Below are positions 45,319 to 58,586 of a stretch of 64,000 bases of DNA, piece after piece (within the stretch, counting starts at the first letter, position 1; the number at the start of each line of letters is the position of its first letter). The notes beneath the pieces were generated by a model. The model did no database searches. It was not told the origin of the DNA and saw nothing but the letters and a program-made list of their open reading frames with translations. The DNA lies in assembly GCA_016342415.1 (NCBI GenBank), contig JAEIOD010000012.1, forward strand, positions 1 to 64,000. The letters are read 5' to 3'. The position numbers and the translations under genes were made by a program. This DNA comes from Clostridiales bacterium (GTDB lineage Bacteria; Bacillota; Clostridia; Peptostreptococcales; Acidaminobacteraceae).

Positions 45319-47103
45319 TTAACCTTTTGTTATCCAATACTCTTCCGGTGAATATGGAATGACTGGAAGTAAAAGATATGAAGGATTTTCTTTTCCTACT
45401 TCTATACTATATGTTATATCTCTCTCATCTGGAGTTATAAGCATCGAAGAAAAATAGGATGGATTGGTATTCTTTATTAACATTTTAACTTTATGACCTT
45501 TTTTAATTACCATAGAAGTTGTTATTATCTCTATTGAGTATCTATTTACTTCATTTGGAGTTACTGGCACTTTCTTGGTATGATTATGGAAAATGTTATA
45601 ATCCGTGGTTTTTTCGGTAATTATTCCTCTATGAGAAGCTCTTAAACTACCAGTAGTAAGCAATCTCATATGACCATCTTCAGATACATCGAACAGATAA
45701 ATTGCAAAGTTTGCATCGTCCACATCCAATGCAGCATTTAGATGAAGTGCAATGGGTCCTGTAATCTCCATATCCTCTTCCATAGACTCAGTTGTGTAGG
45801 AGATACATGCCATTTCACTAGGCTCAGAAGGATTGATTGCCGGTGGAGTATAATTCATAATATCTGGATTAACACTATCTAAACTTTCAAGTTCTTTTGA
45901 TAGTAATCCACCTTTTCTCAAATAGAATTTTGTCCACTGTGTTCTCTCAATAGGCCATTCATATTCGTATCTTACACGTTCATCCCCTTGAACTCTGATT
46001 TTTATAGGTGGTTCATCTAAAACACCTGTTTCCTTACCTTTTAACCAATAATCGTACCACCTGATATATTCCTCACTTAAACTCTTATGAGGAAGTCCTA
46101 TATCCCTATGAGCTTCCGGAGCGAATATCTTAGTTACCACATCATCGTTACAGTTATTATAGGCAAAAAACGGTCCTTGGGTAAACCTTCCAAACTCATA
46201 ATACTCACTTATTAGATACATAGGGATTTTTATATCCTTGAGTTTATTAATCAATGACCTATCATCCCAAAAATCATTGTCTAAATTATTCATTATAACA
46301 TCAAAGAAATATGTTTGATGTCTAGGAGGAAAACAACTTAAAACTCTAGTGAGCAATGCGCTACTTCTAACATCTGCATCATTAATACGTTTATCTATCA
46401 GTGCTTTTAGCTCATCCTCTGTGTTATTTTTCTCTGTATTAGAAATTCCTTTTACAGGACAAAAATCATTATAGATATTAGACCTATCAAAAAATACGCC
46501 ACCAGGATAATTGTGATGATATAAACTGTCTACAATTTCTACACACATAATAGCCTTTAAACTTGGCGGTTGTAGAGCTGCTACTAGCGGCTGTAATATT
46601 GAGAAATATGATATCCCTATCATTCCGATATTCCCATTGCACCCCTTCAATTTAGCGGTCCACTCTATTACATCATAACAATCTTCTTGCTCTTGTCTGC
46701 CATAAAGTCCATCCCAAATACCTTCTGATTTACCTACACCTCTCGGATCTGGAATTACTACAATATAACCTCTTTTTACATAGTACTCTACATCTCCAGC
46801 CTCTATTGTATGATCAAATAGAAGAGAGTTAAAACCCATCGGCACTCTTTCGGATACCTGAATAGATTTTCCATATGCAGAAAACGCCACTAAACCAGGA
46901 AACACCTCATCTTCTGCATTTTTGGGTCTATATATATCCACATAGGTTTTTACGCCATCTCTCATGTAACACACTACATCTTCTTCTTTTTCTACTTCAT
47001 AAATAGGCTTAGATAAATTCTCTATTCCTTTAAAATACTTTTCGCTCCAATAATCAGGTTTTCGTTCTATTCCAACACTGTCCAATATTTCTTGAGTAGT
47101 CAT
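45319..47103 (-). CDS. CocE/NonD family hydrolase (active-site serine present)
   Basis: A 594-residue alpha/beta hydrolase of the X-Pro-dipeptidyl-peptidase/cocaine-esterase group (S15-like). N-terminal YMRDGVKTYVDIYRP, PDPRGVGKSEG, nucleophile in NIGMIGISYFS (Ser165), catalytic His region APEAHRDIGLPHKSL with YDYWLKG, then a C-terminal jelly-roll domain (EMACISYTTE.. MEITGPIALHL). It should cleave esters or N-terminal peptides. It begins 2 bases after the paralogue at 47106, in an operon with a permease, which suggests use of imported substrate. Confidence 0.9.
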   Translation of the reverse strand: MTTQEILDSVGIERKPDYWSEKYFKGIENLSKPIYEVEKEEDVVCYMRDGVKTYVDIYRPKNAEDEVFPGLVAFSAYGKSIQVSERVPMGFNSLLFDHTIEAGDVEYYVKRGYIVVIPDPRGVGKSEGIWDGLYGRQEQEDCYDVIEWTAKLKGCNGNIGMIGISYFSILQPLVAALQPPSLKAIMCVEIVDSLYHHNYPGGVFFDRSNIYNDFCPVKGISNTEKNNTEDELKALIDKRINDADVRSSALLTRVLSCFPPRHQTYFFDVIMNNLDNDFWDDRSLINKLKDIKIPMYLISEYYEFGRFTQGPFFAYNNCNDDVVTKIFAPEAHRDIGLPHKSLSEEYIRWYDYWLKGKETGVLDEPPIKIRVQGDERVRYEYEWPIERTQWTKFYLRKGGLLSKELESLDSVNPDIMNYTPPAINPSEPSEMACISYTTESMEEDMEITGPIALHLNAALDVDDANFAIYLFDVSEDGHMRLLTTGSLRASHRGIITEKTTDYNIFHNHTKKVPVTPNEVNRYSIEIITTSMVIKKGHKVKMLIKNTNPSYFSSMLITPDERDITYSIEVGKENPSYLLLPVIPYSPEEYWITKG

Positions 47104-47105
47104 AA

Positions 47106-48806
47106 TTAAATATCCGTCCCTTCTCTTCCATATACTATAGGTAAATTAATACATGATCGATATTCATTTCCATAGTATACTTTGTAACAACAAAACTCTG
47201 TTATCGGCTGTATACCATCAACTCTACTGCTAGGGTGAATCATAGCAAAAGAAGTTTTTTCATTGTCCACAATCGCTCTCTTATCCATAGTTTTAATTTC
47301 AACTTGTATTTTGTTCCCCTTCTTAAATACATTAGAGGTAGGAGATAATTCAAATTCGTATTTATATATTTCATTTTCTATAACTTCTAGTTCTGTATCG
47401 AAGTCATTAGCTATACCATACTCAAAACCACTATTTTTTGTACCTCTGTAACATGTACTTAAATATCCAGAAGACAAGTGAGTTCTGACTCCATCAGGGT
47501 TAAGATCCCAAAGTTTTGCAATAAGATTGCCTTTGTTAATATCGACACTTGCGTAAATACTAATGGTTATAACTCCTGTTACTTCTGTGTCTTTTTCAAG
47601 AGAACTTGTTGTGTAAGTCAGTGCGGGAATATCCTCAAAGTTTTGCGATACTTTTGTTGGTGGTCTATGTGGTAATACATCAAAAGAAGTTTCAGTCAGA
47701 CTGACATTTTCCTTTAGACTACTATTTTTTCCTAAATACAAGTTGACATTTTCACTTCTCTTAAGAGGAAAAGTGTCCTCAAATCTAAATTTTTCTTTTC
47801 CCATAACAAATACTTTTACAGCTTTTTCATCTTCTATTCCTGTTTCTATACCTTTGAGATGATAGTCGTACCATTTTAAAGTTTCTGTAAGAGTAAAATC
47901 ATCCGGAGATTTTCTGTTGAGTGCATGATGACTTAACATAAGTTTTTTAGTAGATTTTATCCCTTTTGAATTATATAAATTTATAGCAGATATAGTAGTT
48001 TTACCATGCTCATAATATGGTGATACTATATACATAGGAATATCTATCTCTTTATTTTCCATACTTCTATCAGACCAAAAACTACTACCTTTGGGTTGTA
48101 AAAGAATATCTATATTCCAAGTATAATGTCTTGGTGGATACATATCCAAACCCCTATAAAAGTATGAATTTGCTTTGACTTGTGGCAGTTCCCTACACTT
48201 TTTCAACATTTCCTTTAAATCGTCTTCGGAGTTATTTAACTCTGCTTCTGTTATGGGGTTAATTGCAGGAACTAATCCTGCATAATAAAAATTATGGTCT
48301 GTAATCCCTCCACCCCAATAACAATCGGCGTAAAAGTCGTAAGTAACTTCTACTGGCATTATCGCCTTCAAATATTTCGGTTTATGACTAGCAACAAGAG
48401 GCTGTATTTTACCAGCGTAACCCGTACCGATCATACCTATATTTTCTGTAGAAAAGTCCTGTTTTGCAGTCCACTCTATTATTTCAACACAATCTCTCTG
48501 ATCCTGCATGCTTAACATCCCTGTAAAGTATCCCTCAGATGTACTTACACCTCTAGGACTGGGAACAATTACTGCATAACCATTTTCTACGAAGTAGTCG
48601 ATTCTTGGAACTTCTATGGTTTGATCAAAAAGGACTTGACCTAGTCTCAGTGATTTTCTTTCTAAGGCTAGTGCTTGTACATCTTTTCCGTAAGGTGAAA
48701 AACATATCAAAGAAGGAACCTTTTTCTTACTATCAGGTCTATAAATATCCATCATTAGTGTAGTGTTATCTGATAATTTTATTTCAATATTTTTGTTTGT
48801 TATCAT
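47106..48806 (-). CDS. CocE/NonD-like paralogue lacking the nucleophilic serine
   Basis: A 566-residue paralogue of the downstream protein with the same layout: MMDIYRP, PSPRGVSTSEG, NIGMIGTGYAGKIQPLVAS, LKWYDYHLKGIETG and the C-terminal jelly roll. At the nucleophile position, GISYFS in the partner, it reads GTGYAG, so serine is replaced by glycine (Gly129, codon GGT). Unless another residue takes over, it is catalytically dead and may serve as partner, regulator or binding protein. GGGAGA precedes the ATG; 12 bases separate it from the permease gene. Confidence 0.87.
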   Translation of the reverse strand: MITNKNIEIKLSDNTTLMMDIYRPDSKKKVPSLICFSPYGKDVQALALERKSLRLGQVLFDQTIEVPRIDYFVENGYAVIVPSPRGVSTSEGYFTGMLSMQDQRDCVEIIEWTAKQDFSTENIGMIGTGYAGKIQPLVASHKPKYLKAIMPVEVTYDFYADCYWGGGITDHNFYYAGLVPAINPITEAELNNSEDDLKEMLKKCRELPQVKANSYFYRGLDMYPPRHYTWNIDILLQPKGSSFWSDRSMENKEIDIPMYIVSPYYEHGKTTISAINLYNSKGIKSTKKLMLSHHALNRKSPDDFTLTETLKWYDYHLKGIETGIEDEKAVKVFVMGKEKFRFEDTFPLKRSENVNLYLGKNSSLKENVSLTETSFDVLPHRPPTKVSQNFEDIPALTYTTSSLEKDTEVTGVITISIYASVDINKGNLIAKLWDLNPDGVRTHLSSGYLSTCYRGTKNSGFEYGIANDFDTELEVIENEIYKYEFELSPTSNVFKKGNKIQVEIKTMDKRAIVDNEKTSFAMIHPSSRVDGIQPITEFCCYKVYYGNEYRSCINLPIVYGREGTDI

Positions 48807-51776: not shown

Positions 51777-51959
51777 CTATAATAGCGAACTTAGACTATC
51801 TAAATTGAATCGTACATAATCTGATTGCTGTTGCTTTCTCATAACAATATTTTTGGCATGCTTTCTATTTCTCTTCTTTATCAACATTTCGATTAATCCT
51901 CCTTGTATTTCTGTTATTCTATTATTACTGATATTTAGTATTGTATTGTTGGTCAGCAT
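51777..51959 (-). CDS. small basic protein (60 aa) at end of peptide locus
   Basis: A longer frame runs to 52169, but the ATG at 51959 has AAAGGAGGT at 4-base spacing and is the likely start; a second site (AAGGAGG) lies before an internal ATG. The protein has a neutral head (MLTNNTILNISNN) and a very basic middle (LIKKRNRKHAKNIVMRKQQQ) and ends SDYVRFNLDSLSSLL. No family recognised. It lies directly downstream of the 191-bp tandem repeats on the same strand. The upstream part of the longer frame derives from the first, diverged repeat copy. Confidence 0.5.
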   Translation of the reverse strand: MLTNNTILNISNNRITEIQGGLIEMLIKKRNRKHAKNIVMRKQQQSDYVRFNLDSLSSLL

Positions 51960-52109
51960 AATGACCTCCTTTGTATTTTTTAGCTTGAATGAACTCAACT
52001 CATAGATAACATAATGCCGAATATTGCATATTTTGAGTTTACTTCTATGAAATTCTACCTTTTCAGACATTACAAGTATATCTGAAATTGATTTGATTAT
52101 TTTTCTTGC

Positions 52110-53197
52110 CTTTACGTCTGCTACATAACTGCATGCTCCAGTATTGATTATTCCTATACCTTGTTTCAAAACGACTTATTAATTTTACCTCTTGATATCC
52201 CATTAATTCTATATTCAACGTATTCACCTCTTTATCATATGTTGATAATCATATCAACCGTTTCTTCTTCTAATACTCGCTCTAGACTTGCTCTTATGTA
52301 CTTTACGTCTGCTGCATAACTGCATGCTCCAGTATTGATCATTCTTATTCCTTGTTTCAAAACTGTTTATTAATTTTACCTCTTGATATCCCATTAATTC
52401 TATATTCAACGTATTCACCTCTTTATCATATGTTGATAATCATATCAACCGTTTCTTCTTCTAATACTCGCTCTAGACTTGCTCTTATGTACTTTACGTC
52501 TGCTGCATAACTGCATGCTCCAGTATTGATCATTCTTATTCCTTGTTTCAAAACTGTTTATTAATTTTACCTCTTGATATCCCATTAATTCTATATTCAA
52601 CGTATTCACCTCTTTATCATATGTTGATAATCATATCAACCGTTTCTTCTTCTAATACTCGCTCTAGACTTGCTCTTATGTACTTTACGTCTGCTGCATA
52701 ACTGCATGCTCCAGTATTGATCATTCTTATTCCTTGTTTCAAAACTGTTTATTAATTTTACCTCTTGATATCCCATTAATTCTATATTCAACGTATTCAC
52801 CTCTTTATCATATGTTGATAATCATATCAACCGTTTCTTCTTCTAATACTCGCTCTAGACTTGCTCTTATGTACTTTACGTCTGCTGCATAACTGCATGC
52901 TCCAGTATTGATCATTCTTATTCCTTGTTTCAAAACTGTTTATTAATTTTACCTCTTGATATCCCATTAATTCTATATTCAACGTATTCACCTCTTTATC
53001 ATATGTTGATAATCATATCAACCGTTTCTTCTTCTAATACTCGCTCTAGACTTGCTCTTATGTACTTTACGTCTGCTGCATAACTGCATGCTCCAGTATT
53101 GATCATTCTTATTCCTTGTTTCAAAACTGTTTATTAATTTTACCTCTTGATATCCCATTAATTCTATATTCAACGTATTCACCTCTTTATCATATGT
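52110..53197 (-). repeat. 191-bp tandem repeat, 5.7 copies
   Basis: Unit starts at 52110, 52301, 52492, 52683, 52874 and 53065 (exact 191-base steps); the last copy is cut at about 53197. Copies from 52301 on look identical; the copy at 52110 is diverged. On the minus strand each unit has AAAGAGGTG followed by a TTG start, and a second start (AAGGA then ATG) for a 35-codon ORF at 52235-52342, 52426-52533, 52617-52724, 52808-52915 and 52999-53106, beginning MINTGACSYAADVKYIRASL and ending in an acidic helix. Each unit also has the dyad GTTGAT..ATCAAC. It could be amplified peptide genes or copies of a leader region. Confidence 0.85.
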
Positions 53198-53313
53198 ATC
53201 TTTCTAATTGATTAATATTGATTGTTGTTTTATTAATAATATTCCAGAGCAACTACACTCACATCATTTGTTATTATTATACATTTTTTCAATAAGTTTG
53301 AAGTTTATATGTA

Positions 53314-53337
53314 TAAAAAAACCGTAGTCGCCTACGG
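53314..53337 (-). terminator. terminator/attenuator after 23-codon ORF
   Basis: CCGTAG, CGA-type loop, CTACGG followed on the minus strand by seven Ts. Lies between the 23-codon ORF and the tandem repeats, so it may act as an attenuator. Confidence 0.8.
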
Positions 53338-53359: not shown

Positions 53360-53431
53360 TTAGAAAACATACTCCAGATGTAGGGATATTATTGATATTC
53401 TTTTGTTTTTGATTGTGTTTAGGTTAATCAT
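53360..53431 (-). CDS. 23-aa ORF with strong ribosome-binding site
   Basis: ATG at 53431 preceded by AAAAAGGAGG; 23 codons beginning MINLNTIKNKRISIISLHL, then TAA, then a terminator. The strong initiation site with such a short frame suggests a leader peptide or a small functional peptide of the same locus as the tandem repeats. Not recognised. Confidence 0.5.
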   Translation of the reverse strand: MINLNTIKNKRISIISLHLEYVF

Positions 53432-53858
53432 GATACTACCTCCTTTTTATCCTTGTATGTGCTCTGCACTTAAACCATAATCAATATAACATAGGAGTAT
53501 TTTAGTTTCAACTACATATTGATTACAGAATTATTACACTCTATTTATTATCTCAGCTAATACTGATAACAAATACATTTCTAGTAAGTATAACGATACT
53601 CCCGTAACTACTAATATTGGATCTAGGTCAAGGTTTTCAATCAGCAGAAAAAACCGCATCTATTTATGGTATGGTTCACTGAGTTATAAATAGTAATTAA
53701 TCTATATTAACATTATAAAATGTAACCAGTGGATATAAAAAAATTATACAAAAAATCTGAGCAAAAAACTTTCACTCAGAACTTGATAACTCTATTTGAT
53801 TCAAATTGAAACTCATAGAAACAACGATGCATTTACATATTCTGTTAAGCAACTAATA
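53432..53858. other. intergenic, nothing recognised
   Basis: About 430 bases. It should hold the promoter of the small-peptide locus. A weak CTGAGT/CTCAG hairpin with a minus-strand T-run near 53757-53780 may terminate the SRPBCC gene. TTCAAATTGAAA near 53800 resembles the array-element end in the opposite orientation but has no partner. Confidence 0.4.
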
Positions 53859-54608: not shown

Positions 54609-55508
54609 CTATTTTAGTCCAGTAATCTCAATTTTTATACTAATAAAATCATCTTTAATGCATGCGCTCGTACGACCACCCATTTTAGTTACCAGTTCTT
54701 TGACTATTGCAAGACCAAGACCTATTGATTTATTATTTCTTGAAGTATCAGCTGTATAGAATCTATCTAACATCTGTTCTACATCAAGATCTTGAGGATC
54801 TGCAATTTTATTTCTAAATTCTAGAGTACCAGCTTCACTATCAAGAGATACTTCGAATATCTGAATACCATATATCAGTGCATTTTGAATTAAATTCATA
54901 AATATTCTTTCAAACAAAACAACATCTCCCATAAAATACAAAACTTTATCTGGAATGTTTAATCTCACGTCATAACCTTGCTCAATGAATTGATCATAGA
55001 ACATTGAAATGGTATCTCTTAATAAATTGTTCACATTGATTTTCTCTATTTCCATTGGGGCTGATCCCTCAATCAACCTTGAATACTCTAATAAATTACT
55101 CGTAAGGTTTGAAAGAATCTTTAAACGGTATTCTATTATTTTTAGATACTCAACTTTCTTGGATTCAGCAGTTTTATCCGACTGAATCATCTGAACATAT
55201 CCAATTGCAGATGTAAGAGGTGTTCTTAAATCATGAGAAATATTGGTAATTGCCTGTTGAAATTTTCTATTTGATTTTTCACTTGATATCCGAGTTTGTG
55301 TATATTTCTCAAGAATTTCATTCATGGTATTGGATAAGGTGCATATATCCTTATAAAAAGTTGTTGTGGTTAGTTGTTGATTCGTATTATTTTCATGAAT
55401 GAAATTTAATGATTTATTAAGTGATTGAATATCTTTTTTTATTCTTGTCAGCCGAAAAATGCAGATGAATAACATAACGATTAATAAAATAATAATAATC
55501 CACTCCAT
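54609..55508 (-). CDS. sensor histidine kinase, short-input type
   Basis: A 299-residue kinase with only one N-terminal membrane helix (IIILLIVMLFICIF) and no large extracytoplasmic domain, then a coiled linker, phospho-acceptor ITNISHDLRTPLTSAIGYV and ATPase domain NLIQNALIYG, SIGLGLAIVKEL. Such small-input kinases commonly work with ABC transporters in peptide-antibiotic sensing. Last gene of the operon RR-ATPase-permease-HK; the ATG at 55508 is set by GGGAGG. Confidence 0.9.
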   Translation of the reverse strand: MEWIIIILLIVMLFICIFRLTRIKKDIQSLNKSLNFIHENNTNQQLTTTTFYKDICTLSNTMNEILEKYTQTRISSEKSNRKFQQAITNISHDLRTPLTSAIGYVQMIQSDKTAESKKVEYLKIIEYRLKILSNLTSNLLEYSRLIEGSAPMEIEKINVNNLLRDTISMFYDQFIEQGYDVRLNIPDKVLYFMGDVVLFERIFMNLIQNALIYGIQIFEVSLDSEAGTLEFRNKIADPQDLDVEQMLDRFYTADTSRNNKSIGLGLAIVKELVTKMGGRTSACIKDDFISIKIEITGLK

Positions 55509-55526
55509 AAGCATCCTCCCTCCAAC

Positions 55527-56315
55527 TTATTTTATATCACATTTCTTAAATAACATTAGCGTGCCAACCAAACTAAATAGCATATATACAATACCAAGTC
55601 CAATCACTCTTACTATTTCAAGCGAGGTCATAACATTAGCATATGCAGCCATTCTTATATTCATAACCATTTCATAATCAAGTAACTTAATAAACTCTTC
55701 TGAAATACCAAACAACAGGACTATTAATAACATCGGTACTAAACAAAATGCAATATACAATCCATTTACTTTTGCTGTGCTTCTTGTTGTGAATACGAAA
55801 AATATCCCCAAACTTGTTACAGCCAGTAAAAGAAACAACTGTAAACTAAATGCTTTAAACACTTGACCAACAAACTCTAAATCGACTCCACCTCCAAAAC
55901 CTTTTAGAAGCGTTACAATAGTTGTTGGTATCACAAGGCTTGATACCGATATAACAATACAAAACAACATGGAAAGTATCAGTTTTGAAAAGTAATAATG
56001 GGTTCGAGAAACACCATTTGCCAGTACATTTTTTGCTGTTCCCGAAGAAAAGTCAGCTGCTGATATGAAGATGATCACCGGTAATAATAGGTAAAGTAGA
56101 TTATCATTTGCTCTCATCATAATCATGGGTACCATTTTACCTGTTAACTGCGTTACAATCTCTTCTGCACCTTCCATATTCTCAGAACTTATGCCAATAG
56201 ACTCCATCATACCAAAGGACTGTAAAATGCAAAGAACGAATAAAAATCCCATGGTAATATAAATACCTTTTCCTCTAAAAACTCTATAGATGTCTGCTTT
56301 AATTAAATTAATCAT
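55527..56315 (-). CDS. ABC transporter permease (ABC-2 type)
   Basis: A 262-residue membrane protein with six hydrophobic segments and an extracytoplasmic loop between the first two (about 40-85), as in LanE/LanG- or BcrB-type subunits. Its start (56315, preceded by GGAGGTG) overlaps the ATPase gene by 8 bases. It should form the channel with two copies of the ATPase. Export or expulsion of a peptide antibiotic is likely given the operon partners. Confidence 0.85.
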   Translation of the reverse strand: MINLIKADIYRVFRGKGIYITMGFLFVLCILQSFGMMESIGISSENMEGAEEIVTQLTGKMVPMIMMRANDNLLYLLLPVIIFISAADFSSGTAKNVLANGVSRTHYYFSKLILSMLFCIVISVSSLVIPTTIVTLLKGFGGGVDLEFVGQVFKAFSLQLFLLLAVTSLGIFFVFTTRSTAKVNGLYIAFCLVPMLLIVLLFGISEEFIKLLDYEMVMNIRMAAYANVMTSLEIVRVIGLGIVYMLFSLVGTLMLFKKCDIK

Positions 56316-57234
56316 TTGATAACACCTCCCCAACTTGAGAAATGAAATAATCTTCTAAGTTTTCTCCTACTTCATAAAAACTCGATACACGAACACCAGC
56401 TTTACTAAACTGATGTGTGACTTCCGATGGATTATCCAGATAATCATAAACTTTAATCTCGTTATGACTAATAACTTTAAACTTATTTGTGATTAAGATG
56501 GTTTCTAATACAGCGACTGCATTTGCAACATCATCTACAGTAACCAATAGTGATTTTTGACATATGTCATTCAGTTCATCTTGATTAAATTCTTTGATTA
56601 ATTTTCCGTTATCAATAATACCGTAACGTGTTGCAACTAAATGTAACTCTTTAAGAATATGGCTTGATATTAATATCGTAATACCATAATCTTGATTAAG
56701 TTTTATTATTGTCTTTCTCATTTCAATAATTCCCATTGGATCTAGCCCATTAATAGGTTCGTCCAATATAATGAAATCTGGATGATTAAGAAGTGCTAAT
56801 GCCAAACCAAGACGTTGCTTCATCCCCATTGAGAAACTTTTAAACTTCTTTTTACCCGTGTACGTCAGTTCTACCATTTCTAATGATCTTCTTATAACTT
56901 TTTTATCAGGAATACCTCTTTGAATACGGTAGTACTCGAGATTTTGAAAAGCCGTTAGATTAGGATAAAATGCTGGTGATTCGATAACACATCCTATTCT
57001 CTTTCTTTCATCATGAAGTTCAGATTGTGACTTTTGACCAAATAAAGTTATGCTGCCCGTATCAGGAATAGAAAGGCTCGTTATAAGTCTTGCTAAAGTT
57101 GTTTTACCAGCACCATTTCTTCCAATCAGCCCATATATATCACCCTTATAGATTGTCATGTTAAAATTATCTACTGCTGCTATACCAGAATATTTCTTAG
57201 TAATATTATGAGTTTTCAATACAATTTCTTTCAT
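56308..57234 (-). CDS. ABC transporter ATP-binding protein (BcrA/LanF-like)
   Basis: A 308-residue ATPase: Walker A GLIGRNGAGKTTLARLI, signature FSMGMKQRLGLALALL, Walker B PDFIILDEPINGLDP and the switch histidine in ISSHIL; a ~90-residue C-terminal extension as in bacitracin and lantibiotic immunity ATPases. Second gene of the operon, 87 bases after the response regulator. Together with the permease and kinase it makes a sensing and export module. Confidence 0.95.
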   Translation of the reverse strand: MKEIVLKTHNITKKYSGIAAVDNFNMTIYKGDIYGLIGRNGAGKTTLARLITSLSIPDTGSITLFGQKSQSELHDERKRIGCVIESPAFYPNLTAFQNLEYYRIQRGIPDKKVIRRSLEMVELTYTGKKKFKSFSMGMKQRLGLALALLNHPDFIILDEPINGLDPMGIIEMRKTIIKLNQDYGITILISSHILKELHLVATRYGIIDNGKLIKEFNQDELNDICQKSLLVTVDDVANAVAVLETILITNKFKVISHNEIKVYDYLDNPSEVTHQFSKAGVRVSSFYEVGENLEDYFISQVGEVLSND

Positions 57235-57321
57235 TTTATTACAATCTCCTTTCCTTCTTTTATCATAATATTATATGAAAGGTTTAAATTAAGACTTAAT
57301 TGAATCTAAAAAAAGTCTTAA

Positions 57322-58014
57322 TTACTCTTGCATTTTATACCCAATTCCCCAAATCGTTTGAATATATTTAGTAGCTGGCTTTAATTTACCAATTTTGGAT
57401 CGAATATTACTTATATGAACATTGATTGTATTGTCATCACCTAGAAACTCATCATTCCAAACACTTTCATACAAGTTATTCTTTGTGAAAACTTTTCTAG
57501 GATTTGCCATTAATAACTTCAATATCTCATATTCTCTTTTAGATAATTGGAGAGATTGATTATTGATCATACCATCAAATCTTTCGAAATCTAAAACCAA
57601 ATCTCTATATGTTAATACCGTTTCTTTTTTTTCGTCTGGATGAAACACACTTTGTCGTAAATGAACTTCAATTCTTGCCAATAACTCATTATTATCAAAC
57701 GGTTTTACTATATAGTCATTGGCACCTAATCTTAAAGTTGATACAACAGAATCCTTAAGACCTATAGCCGTGATTACTATAACAGGTATCTGGCTATTTC
57801 CTCTTATTTCAGATAACACAACTTCACCTGATTTCCCTGGAAGCATTAAGTCTAACAAAATAAGGTTAAATGAATCATCTTTTATGTGCATTAAAGCTTC
57901 AGTTCCTGAATATGCAGGTACAGATTTATAACCAGTTTGTTCTAATAACTCACACAACATATTATTAATGTCATTGTCATCTTCGACTACTAATATTTTT
58001 ACAGGTTTAGTCAT
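57322..58014 (-). CDS. OmpR-family response regulator, first gene of ABC operon
   Basis: A 230-residue regulator: KILVVEDDNDI, phospho-Asp in NLILLDLMLPGKSG, TAIG, DYIVKPF, then a winged helix ending FLGDDNTINVHISNIRSKI and GIGYKM. The start at 58014 is supported by GAGGAGG; the upstream 27 codons of the frame lack a site. Gene order RR, ATPase, permease, kinase on one strand with small gaps indicates one operon controlled by its own product. Confidence 0.94.
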   Translation of the reverse strand: MTKPVKILVVEDDNDINNMLCELLEQTGYKSVPAYSGTEALMHIKDDSFNLILLDLMLPGKSGEVVLSEIRGNSQIPVIVITAIGLKDSVVSTLRLGANDYIVKPFDNNELLARIEVHLRQSVFHPDEKKETVLTYRDLVLDFERFDGMINNQSLQLSKREYEILKLLMANPRKVFTKNNLYESVWNDEFLGDDNTINVHISNIRSKIGKLKPATKYIQTIWGIGYKMQE

Positions 58015-58586
58015 TCTCTTCCTCCTCATTAATCTGTACATGGCAATATTCTCTATTTTTATTATTGTTTTAACATTCCAATATGACACTTCCATTTATT
58101 ACTGGTACTAACGCTAAAATCATGTTCCCACATTCTTCTTACTAATATACATATTACCCAGCTAGATCAAACTATCTACAAATTTTATTTAATCACGACT
58201 TTGCCTAAGTCATATTATTAGATGTCAGTTGTAAAAGTTTCTGATAATTCTATATCCTTATCGATATAACACAAAAATCCAACAAGATTTATTTATCTTG
58301 TTGGATCTATGATTTTAATTATGTTCAACAACACACCTGTTGTAATGATCGCAGTTATCGTCAGTCTATATGTTTAGAAGTTGATGGTTACCCACTGTTA
58401 GAACGCAATATATTTCATTTTATAGGGATGTCTCTAATGATTGCTGGTAAAATATATACTCATATTTTACGGATAGCATTCCTCCCTCTCATGCTCCAAT
58501 TCAAACATTTTTTTCATTTCGATCTACTTTATCTCTTAATCACTCTAGTCATATTTTACATTTTCAATCAACACTAAACGAAAAAA
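58015..58586. other. intergenic with terminator
   Basis: A 570-base gap. It holds the promoter of the RR/ABC/HK operon near its left end and a terminator at 58274-58308. A short hydrophobic plus-strand frame near 58321 lacks a ribosome-binding site and was not called. Confidence 0.45.
58274..58308 (-). terminator. rho-independent terminator
   Basis: ATCCAACAAGAT and ATCTTGTTGGAT around a 6-base loop, minus-strand T-run; downstream of the HTH/metallopeptidase operon. Confidence 0.85.

Follow-up and report, generated by a model that had tools for sequence, protein, structure and literature searches.

A tandemly amplified small gene behind a likely leader-peptide attenuator in a Clostridiales bacterium

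Leader-peptide transcription attenuators are known in the form of trp-type and antibiotic-inducible leaders, and tandem gene amplification by unequal recombination is a general phenomenon. In addition, the long direct repeats ldrA-C of E. coli reportedly encode peptides of some 35 residues that act as type I toxins. The locus described here lies in a window of 64,000 nucleotides, that is, the whole stretch of contig JAEIOD010000012.1 that was analysed, and it can be compared with each of these systems. As in leader-peptide attenuators, a short ORF with a ribosome-binding site stands directly ahead of an intrinsic terminator, bases of the leader ORF may be able to pair with the 5′ side of the terminator, and the 3′ end of the ORF is the better conserved part; unlike in those systems, the leader has no run of codons for one amino acid, and it would control small orphan proteins rather than biosynthesis or resistance genes. 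With ldrA-C the locus shares tandem direct repeats with a small ORF in each, but its 191-bp units lie behind one leader, their products are hydrophilic by eye and a consensus scan gave no sign of an antisense RNA promoter. Head-to-tail identical copies with a diverged copy at the end are also what recent tandem amplification produces, but what is repeated here is one very small gene, in units of 191 bp. The reading preferred here, to which a probability of about 0.55 is given, is that of a small-protein operon behind a leader-peptide attenuator, whose middle gene has been recently amplified with a role in dosage. The locus is a clean example of one tiny gene amplified very recently within an operon that is single-copy in a relative.

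All relevant genes of the small-gene module are encoded on the minus strand, in the order promoter, leader ORF, terminator, array, diverged copy and 60-codon gene (Table 1). Tandem Repeats Finder (TRF) reported a repeat at 52110-53197 with a period of 191, 5.7 copies and 99% matches, and copies 1-5 (from 53197 down to 52243) show 0 differences among them, which bears out the exact steps and the copy number of the original prediction; chance is excluded for five such 191-mers. Since the five copies are fully identical, the event must be very recent, and since 191 is not a multiple of 3, the array is a row of separate ORFs and not one repetitive protein. Copy 6 differs from the repeat at 7 positions over its first 133 bases (52242-52110) and then at 39 of 58, a divergence about that of unrelated sequence. 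The predicted 23-codon ORF and terminator ahead of the array, the 51-codon TTG ORF (54 aa in the ORF list, which starts it at an in-frame GTG) and the 60-codon ORF past the diverged copy were all present on the minus strand. A 601-base piece of the array, searched against its own genome of 5.4 Mb at E 0.001, matched the array only. The assembly on which the copy number depends is a draft in 83 contigs (completeness 98.82, contamination 9.08). Antisense to the repeats, a hydrophobic plus-strand frame with a TTG start is open at 52161-53211, five times over 52 codons and once over 31, and has no evident ribosome-binding site.

Table 1. Features of the small-gene module and related motif matches in the window
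Feature	Position	Strand	Remarks
Direct repeat TGTAAT-N5-TGTAAT, candidate OmpR-family regulator site	53522..53538	-	Just upstream of promoter; JC074 has TGTAATAATTCTGTAAC at the corresponding position
Sigma-70-type promoter TTGAAA-17-TATATT with TG	53483..53511	-	10 of 12 consensus bases; aligned hexamers in JC074 TTGTAT, TATATT
23-codon leader ORF MINLNTIKNKRISIISLHLEYVF	53360..53431	-	Strong ribosome-binding site; JC074 counterpart MIMLTNKTDKRIFKISLHLEYVF
Intrinsic terminator CCGTAGG..CTACGG + T7, likely attenuator	53322..53337	-	Stem conserved in JC074
Five identical 191-bp units	52243..53197	-	0 differences among copies 1-5
51-codon TTG-started ORF, unit 1 (four identical ones follow at 191-bp steps)	53018..53173	-	Ribosome-binding site GAGGTG; likely the gene
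Overlapping 35-codon ATG ORF, unit 1	52999..53106	-	Codon usage for, JC074 comparison and diverged copy against; probably not the gene
Diverged sixth copy of the 51-codon gene, C-terminus different	52063..52218	-	ORF list, alignment
60-codon basic protein gene	51777..51959	-	Ribosome-binding site AAGGAGG; JC074 ortholog 59 residues, 42% identity
TGTWAH-N5-TGTWAH matches	14428, 20784, 22901, 27977, 41773, 45317, 53522		

In a relative of the same genus, Acidaminobacter sp. JC074 (G001), the operon exists without the array: leader, terminator, one 55-codon middle ORF and the ortholog of the 60-codon gene follow each other, and no tandem repeat was found over 18 kb. The genus would be Acidaminobacter, judging from the name of JC074 and its kinship label. 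A DNA search of 41 genomes matched four, namely the window's own, JC074 (leader region, 71% identity over 276 bases) and two with 26-27 bases each (E 1.4e-4 and 3.6e-4). When the 130-codon frame that joins the diverged copy to the 60-codon gene was searched as a protein in 297 genomes of the order, 13 rows were returned: the query, five of its own repeats, the JC074 counterpart of the 60-codon gene (E 9e-8, 43%) and six weak matches. In G002, also of this genus, the operon was not found by DNA, protein or leader-motif searches, so far leaving two genomes of one genus in which it has been seen.

Two overlapping frames are open in the unit, and the amplified gene is likely to be the TTG-started frame of 51 codons, well ahead of the 35-codon frame (MINTGACSYAADVK...), with codon usage disagreeing. 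From its start codon the TTG frame aligns ungapped with the JC074 middle ORF over 31 residues, with a score of 39 against a shuffle mean of 22.1 (p 0.006, 5000 shuffles; p 0.010 on repeating the test with 1000 shuffles and the whole open frame), the diverged copy gives p 0.007 in the same kind of test, and the start position and ribosome-binding site have counterparts in JC074; identity between the middle genes is only 20-22%. For the 35/41-codon frame, similarity to the JC074 middle gene was not found (shuffle p 0.49), 0 matches were obtained at E 0.01 in 60 relatives, and the corresponding ATG in JC074 opens 7 codons only. Moreover, the diverged copy has ATA in place of its ATG, so the 35-codon ORF predicted for every unit is present in five of six. 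On the other side, its ATG is preceded by a plausible ribosome-binding site (AAGGA), and its codon usage is gene-like: it scores 0.201 per codon, or 0.170 when counted from the TTG upstream of it, while the 51-codon TTG frame scores -0.013. For comparison, the window's genes average 0.130 in stretches of 50 codons, and the 95th percentile of wrong frames is 0.042. This test is weak here, because the stop-broken third frame of the repeat also scores 0.141 and the conserved 60-codon gene only 0.016; the JC074 middle gene scores 0.039, the JC074 ortholog of the 60-codon gene 0.129 and the two leaders -0.111 and -0.041. Of the codons that changed between the repeat and the diverged copy, five of six are nonsynonymous when read in the TTG frame, so purifying selection is not visible there, and four of five when read in the ATG frame; the comparison favours neither frame. 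On balance it is doubtful that the 35-codon frame is the amplified product, that is, a new overlapping peptide gene which arose in a repeat copy and was then amplified. Still less probable is an orphan, genus-specific system in which each unit makes two proteins, the second from a newly created and amplified overlapping frame, and the copy number of the 191-bp unit behind a leader-peptide attenuator sets the output ratio of the system. The earlier idea of an amplified peptide family holds in kind, with one gene in JC074 and six here, and shifts in frame, from 35 codons to the likelier 51, which had been noted only in passing; the proposed search for homologous loci with other repeat numbers yielded the single middle gene of JC074, to which the TTG frame is similar and the 35-codon frame is not. 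AlphaFold2 gave a poor model of the 51-residue protein (pLDDT 66.6).

Judged from sequence, the leader ORF and the terminator likely form a leader-peptide attenuator, and the arrangement of a short ORF with a ribosome-binding site ahead of an intrinsic terminator is conserved in JC074. The JC074 leader MIMLTNKTDKRIFKISLHLEYVF also has 23 codons and the same last nine residues, and its DNA is nearly identical at the 3′ end, with a single difference in the stretch of the ORF that runs from ATCCC to its stop codon. Both species have the same terminator stem and the same ACTAT ahead of it, whereas the approximately 19 bases between the ORF end and ACTAT are far less alike. In both species CCTAC and GGA of the leader can pair with GTAGG and TCC on the 5′ side of the terminator. 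With the terminator 3′ arm left off, the segment folds at -9.4 and -11.9 kcal/mol; once that arm is included, the terminator outcompetes this alternative. Of 2000 shuffled leader ORF segments, 94 and 96 in the two species paired at least as strongly as the real one, no covariation was found in it between the two species, the main pairs being invariant, and the folding z-scores of the whole leaders (-1.06 and -0.69) are unremarkable. Because some shuffles do as well and the pairs do not vary, the argument for attenuation is one of anatomy, not of covariation. The leader, ending in ...ISLHLEYVF, may sense translation; the string LHLEYVF was absent from the papers of the literature library searched.

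A 27-base motif of the leader 3′ end, with at most 3 mismatches allowed, occurred in only two of 41 family genomes, the window's and that of JC074, with 0 mismatches each. A protein-level DNA pattern of the leader motif gave 3 matches in the genome_contigs collection (84,980 species) and 0 in viral contigs; these two collections may omit the window's own genome. Beside JC074, the matches were one in Clostridium vincentii, rejected as lying inside a 459-codon ORF on the other strand, and one in Dokdonia, judged chance, where reading by eye showed no hairpin with a T-run. With JC074 as the sole non-chance match, the motif is not a widespread element within these collections.

Upstream of the leader, the direct repeat TGTAATAATTCTGTAA(T/C) stands ahead of the promoter in both species, and we take it to resemble OmpR-family (WalR-like) sites. 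The degenerate form TGTWAH-N5-TGTWAH has 7 matches in the window against 1.38 expected, and none of 100 shuffles reached seven; possibly these are OmpR-family regulator sites. The excess lowers the weight of any single match, though the one at 53522 is conserved. The promoter scan as a whole gave 25 promoter-like sites against 26.6 in shuffles, so no excess.

For the 60-residue protein, AlphaFold2 predicted two helices from a two-sequence input (pLDDT 79.1, pTM 0.33). Fusion of the diverged copy's frame and the 60-codon gene into one 130-codon protein was rejected: a strong ribosome-binding site stands ahead of the 60-codon gene itself, and JC074 matches residues 66-129 only. Pfam, NCBIfam and PHROGs gave no convincing match for the module proteins (NCBIfam and PHROGs at E 0.012 or worse), and no Rfam family reached its gathering score in the window. 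Three solved structures matched the 60-residue profile (best E 0.0067); they are designed or leucine-rich-repeat proteins aligned to residues 2-26, and were taken as chance. With the 130-codon frame, the leader and the 60-residue protein as queries, 0 matches were found in phages and plasmids; the 51-residue protein had no relatives in the genome_contigs collection, and the 60-residue alignment had none in viral contigs. Weak matches came from one of 41 genomes besides its own for the 51-residue protein (E 0.0086), from six genomes for the 130-codon frame (E 0.0015-0.0081) and from six for the 60-residue profile (E 0.0009-0.0093, in a sample without JC074). All were judged chance because many genomes were searched and several rows had interrupted or very long frames. 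Filtered ORF listings covered two of these loci, and in one of them the matched ORF did not appear. The literature search, confined to listings, returned nothing on the small-gene locus. Since the module proteins match no known family convincingly, any function found for them would be new.

It is proposed that the promoter, perhaps activated by an OmpR-family regulator, would give a transcript starting with the leader ORF and the intrinsic terminator. Translation of the leader would decide whether CCUAC and GGA are free to pair with the terminator 5′ side, with read-through as the result, or not, with termination. Read-through would then yield a protein of 51-55 residues and the basic, helical 60-residue protein. 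As for the origin, the window's genome may formerly have had two tandem paralogs of the middle gene, and recombination in their shared 5′ part, of the unequal type, would recently have amplified one of them to five exact copies. When the sixth copy is aligned locally with JC074 at the DNA level, a gappy match appears to extend through the gene end, whereas the terminal portion of each identical unit is matched nowhere else in the genome; two paralogs with different 3′ ends would explain both boundaries of the array. The duplicated part is the middle gene and not, as had also been suggested, the leader region. The amplification would raise the dose of the middle-gene product relative to the 60-residue protein, and its restriction to the middle gene suggests either a benefit from more of this product per 60-residue protein or a recent, neutral expansion.

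Dosage is ranked first and neutral expansion close behind; the confidences given to the readings are not mutually exclusive. In the neutral case, which is possible but tentative, the array expanded in tandem neutrally or transiently, without a selected role, or its copy number is misassembled, and the operon functions like that of JC074, on one or two middle genes, which is compatible with the attenuator and reading-frame parts of the preferred explanation. The identity of the five copies, their occurrence in one genome and the draft state of the assembly all fit it; nothing counts directly against it, but short-read assemblers tend to collapse exact repeats rather than to expand them. That the repeats act as RNA or DNA, as a spacer, hairpins or regulator sites between the promoter and the 60-codon gene, is improbable. 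A 7-bp inverted repeat, GTTGATA..TATCAAC, was read by eye at the stop codon of each of the five units, but none could be seen by eye behind either the diverged copy or the middle gene of JC074, the unit folds with a z-score of -0.33, and the JC074 counterparts of the TTG start and its ribosome-binding site count against this reading. Tandem small ORFs are also known from systems such as the ldr repeats, yet an array of type I toxins or of bacteriocin/RiPP precursors is the least probable of these alternatives. Both minus-strand products are hydrophilic by eye, where an ldr-like toxin would be a short hydrophobic membrane peptide; a consensus scan found no plus-strand promoter-like site within 52110-53197; and no modification enzyme was recognised near either locus, mostly by reading of ORFs, with Pfam run on part of those of the window. 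As for an exporter, an ABC transporter is close by in the window, but the kinase of its operon is matched only distantly in JC074.

Next to the module, a response regulator, an ABC transporter (ATPase and permease) and a histidine kinase are encoded in one direction at 54609-58095. The tie to this operon that had been suggested is unsupported: in JC074 the module lies in other surroundings, which we take to be SDR-like and ECF-sigma/anti-sigma-like genes, as named from their ORFs, whereas its neighbours in the window include an AraC-family regulator and a Polyketide_cyc2-like gene (E 5.9e-05, below the Pfam cut-off), and all matches to the kinase are distant in JC074 (25-31%) and in G002 (28-29%). 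The best match of the kinase among the five genomes searched was in another genus (G017; 36%, E 4e-51), where the 51-residue protein had no match. With the surroundings different and the kinase matches distant, the module looks independent, and the neighbouring kinase/ABC operon is probably unrelated to it. Elsewhere in the window, at 45319-48806, two adjacent hydrolase-like genes, similar by eye and presumably of CocE/X-Pro peptidase types, lie beside an amino-acid-permease-like gene.
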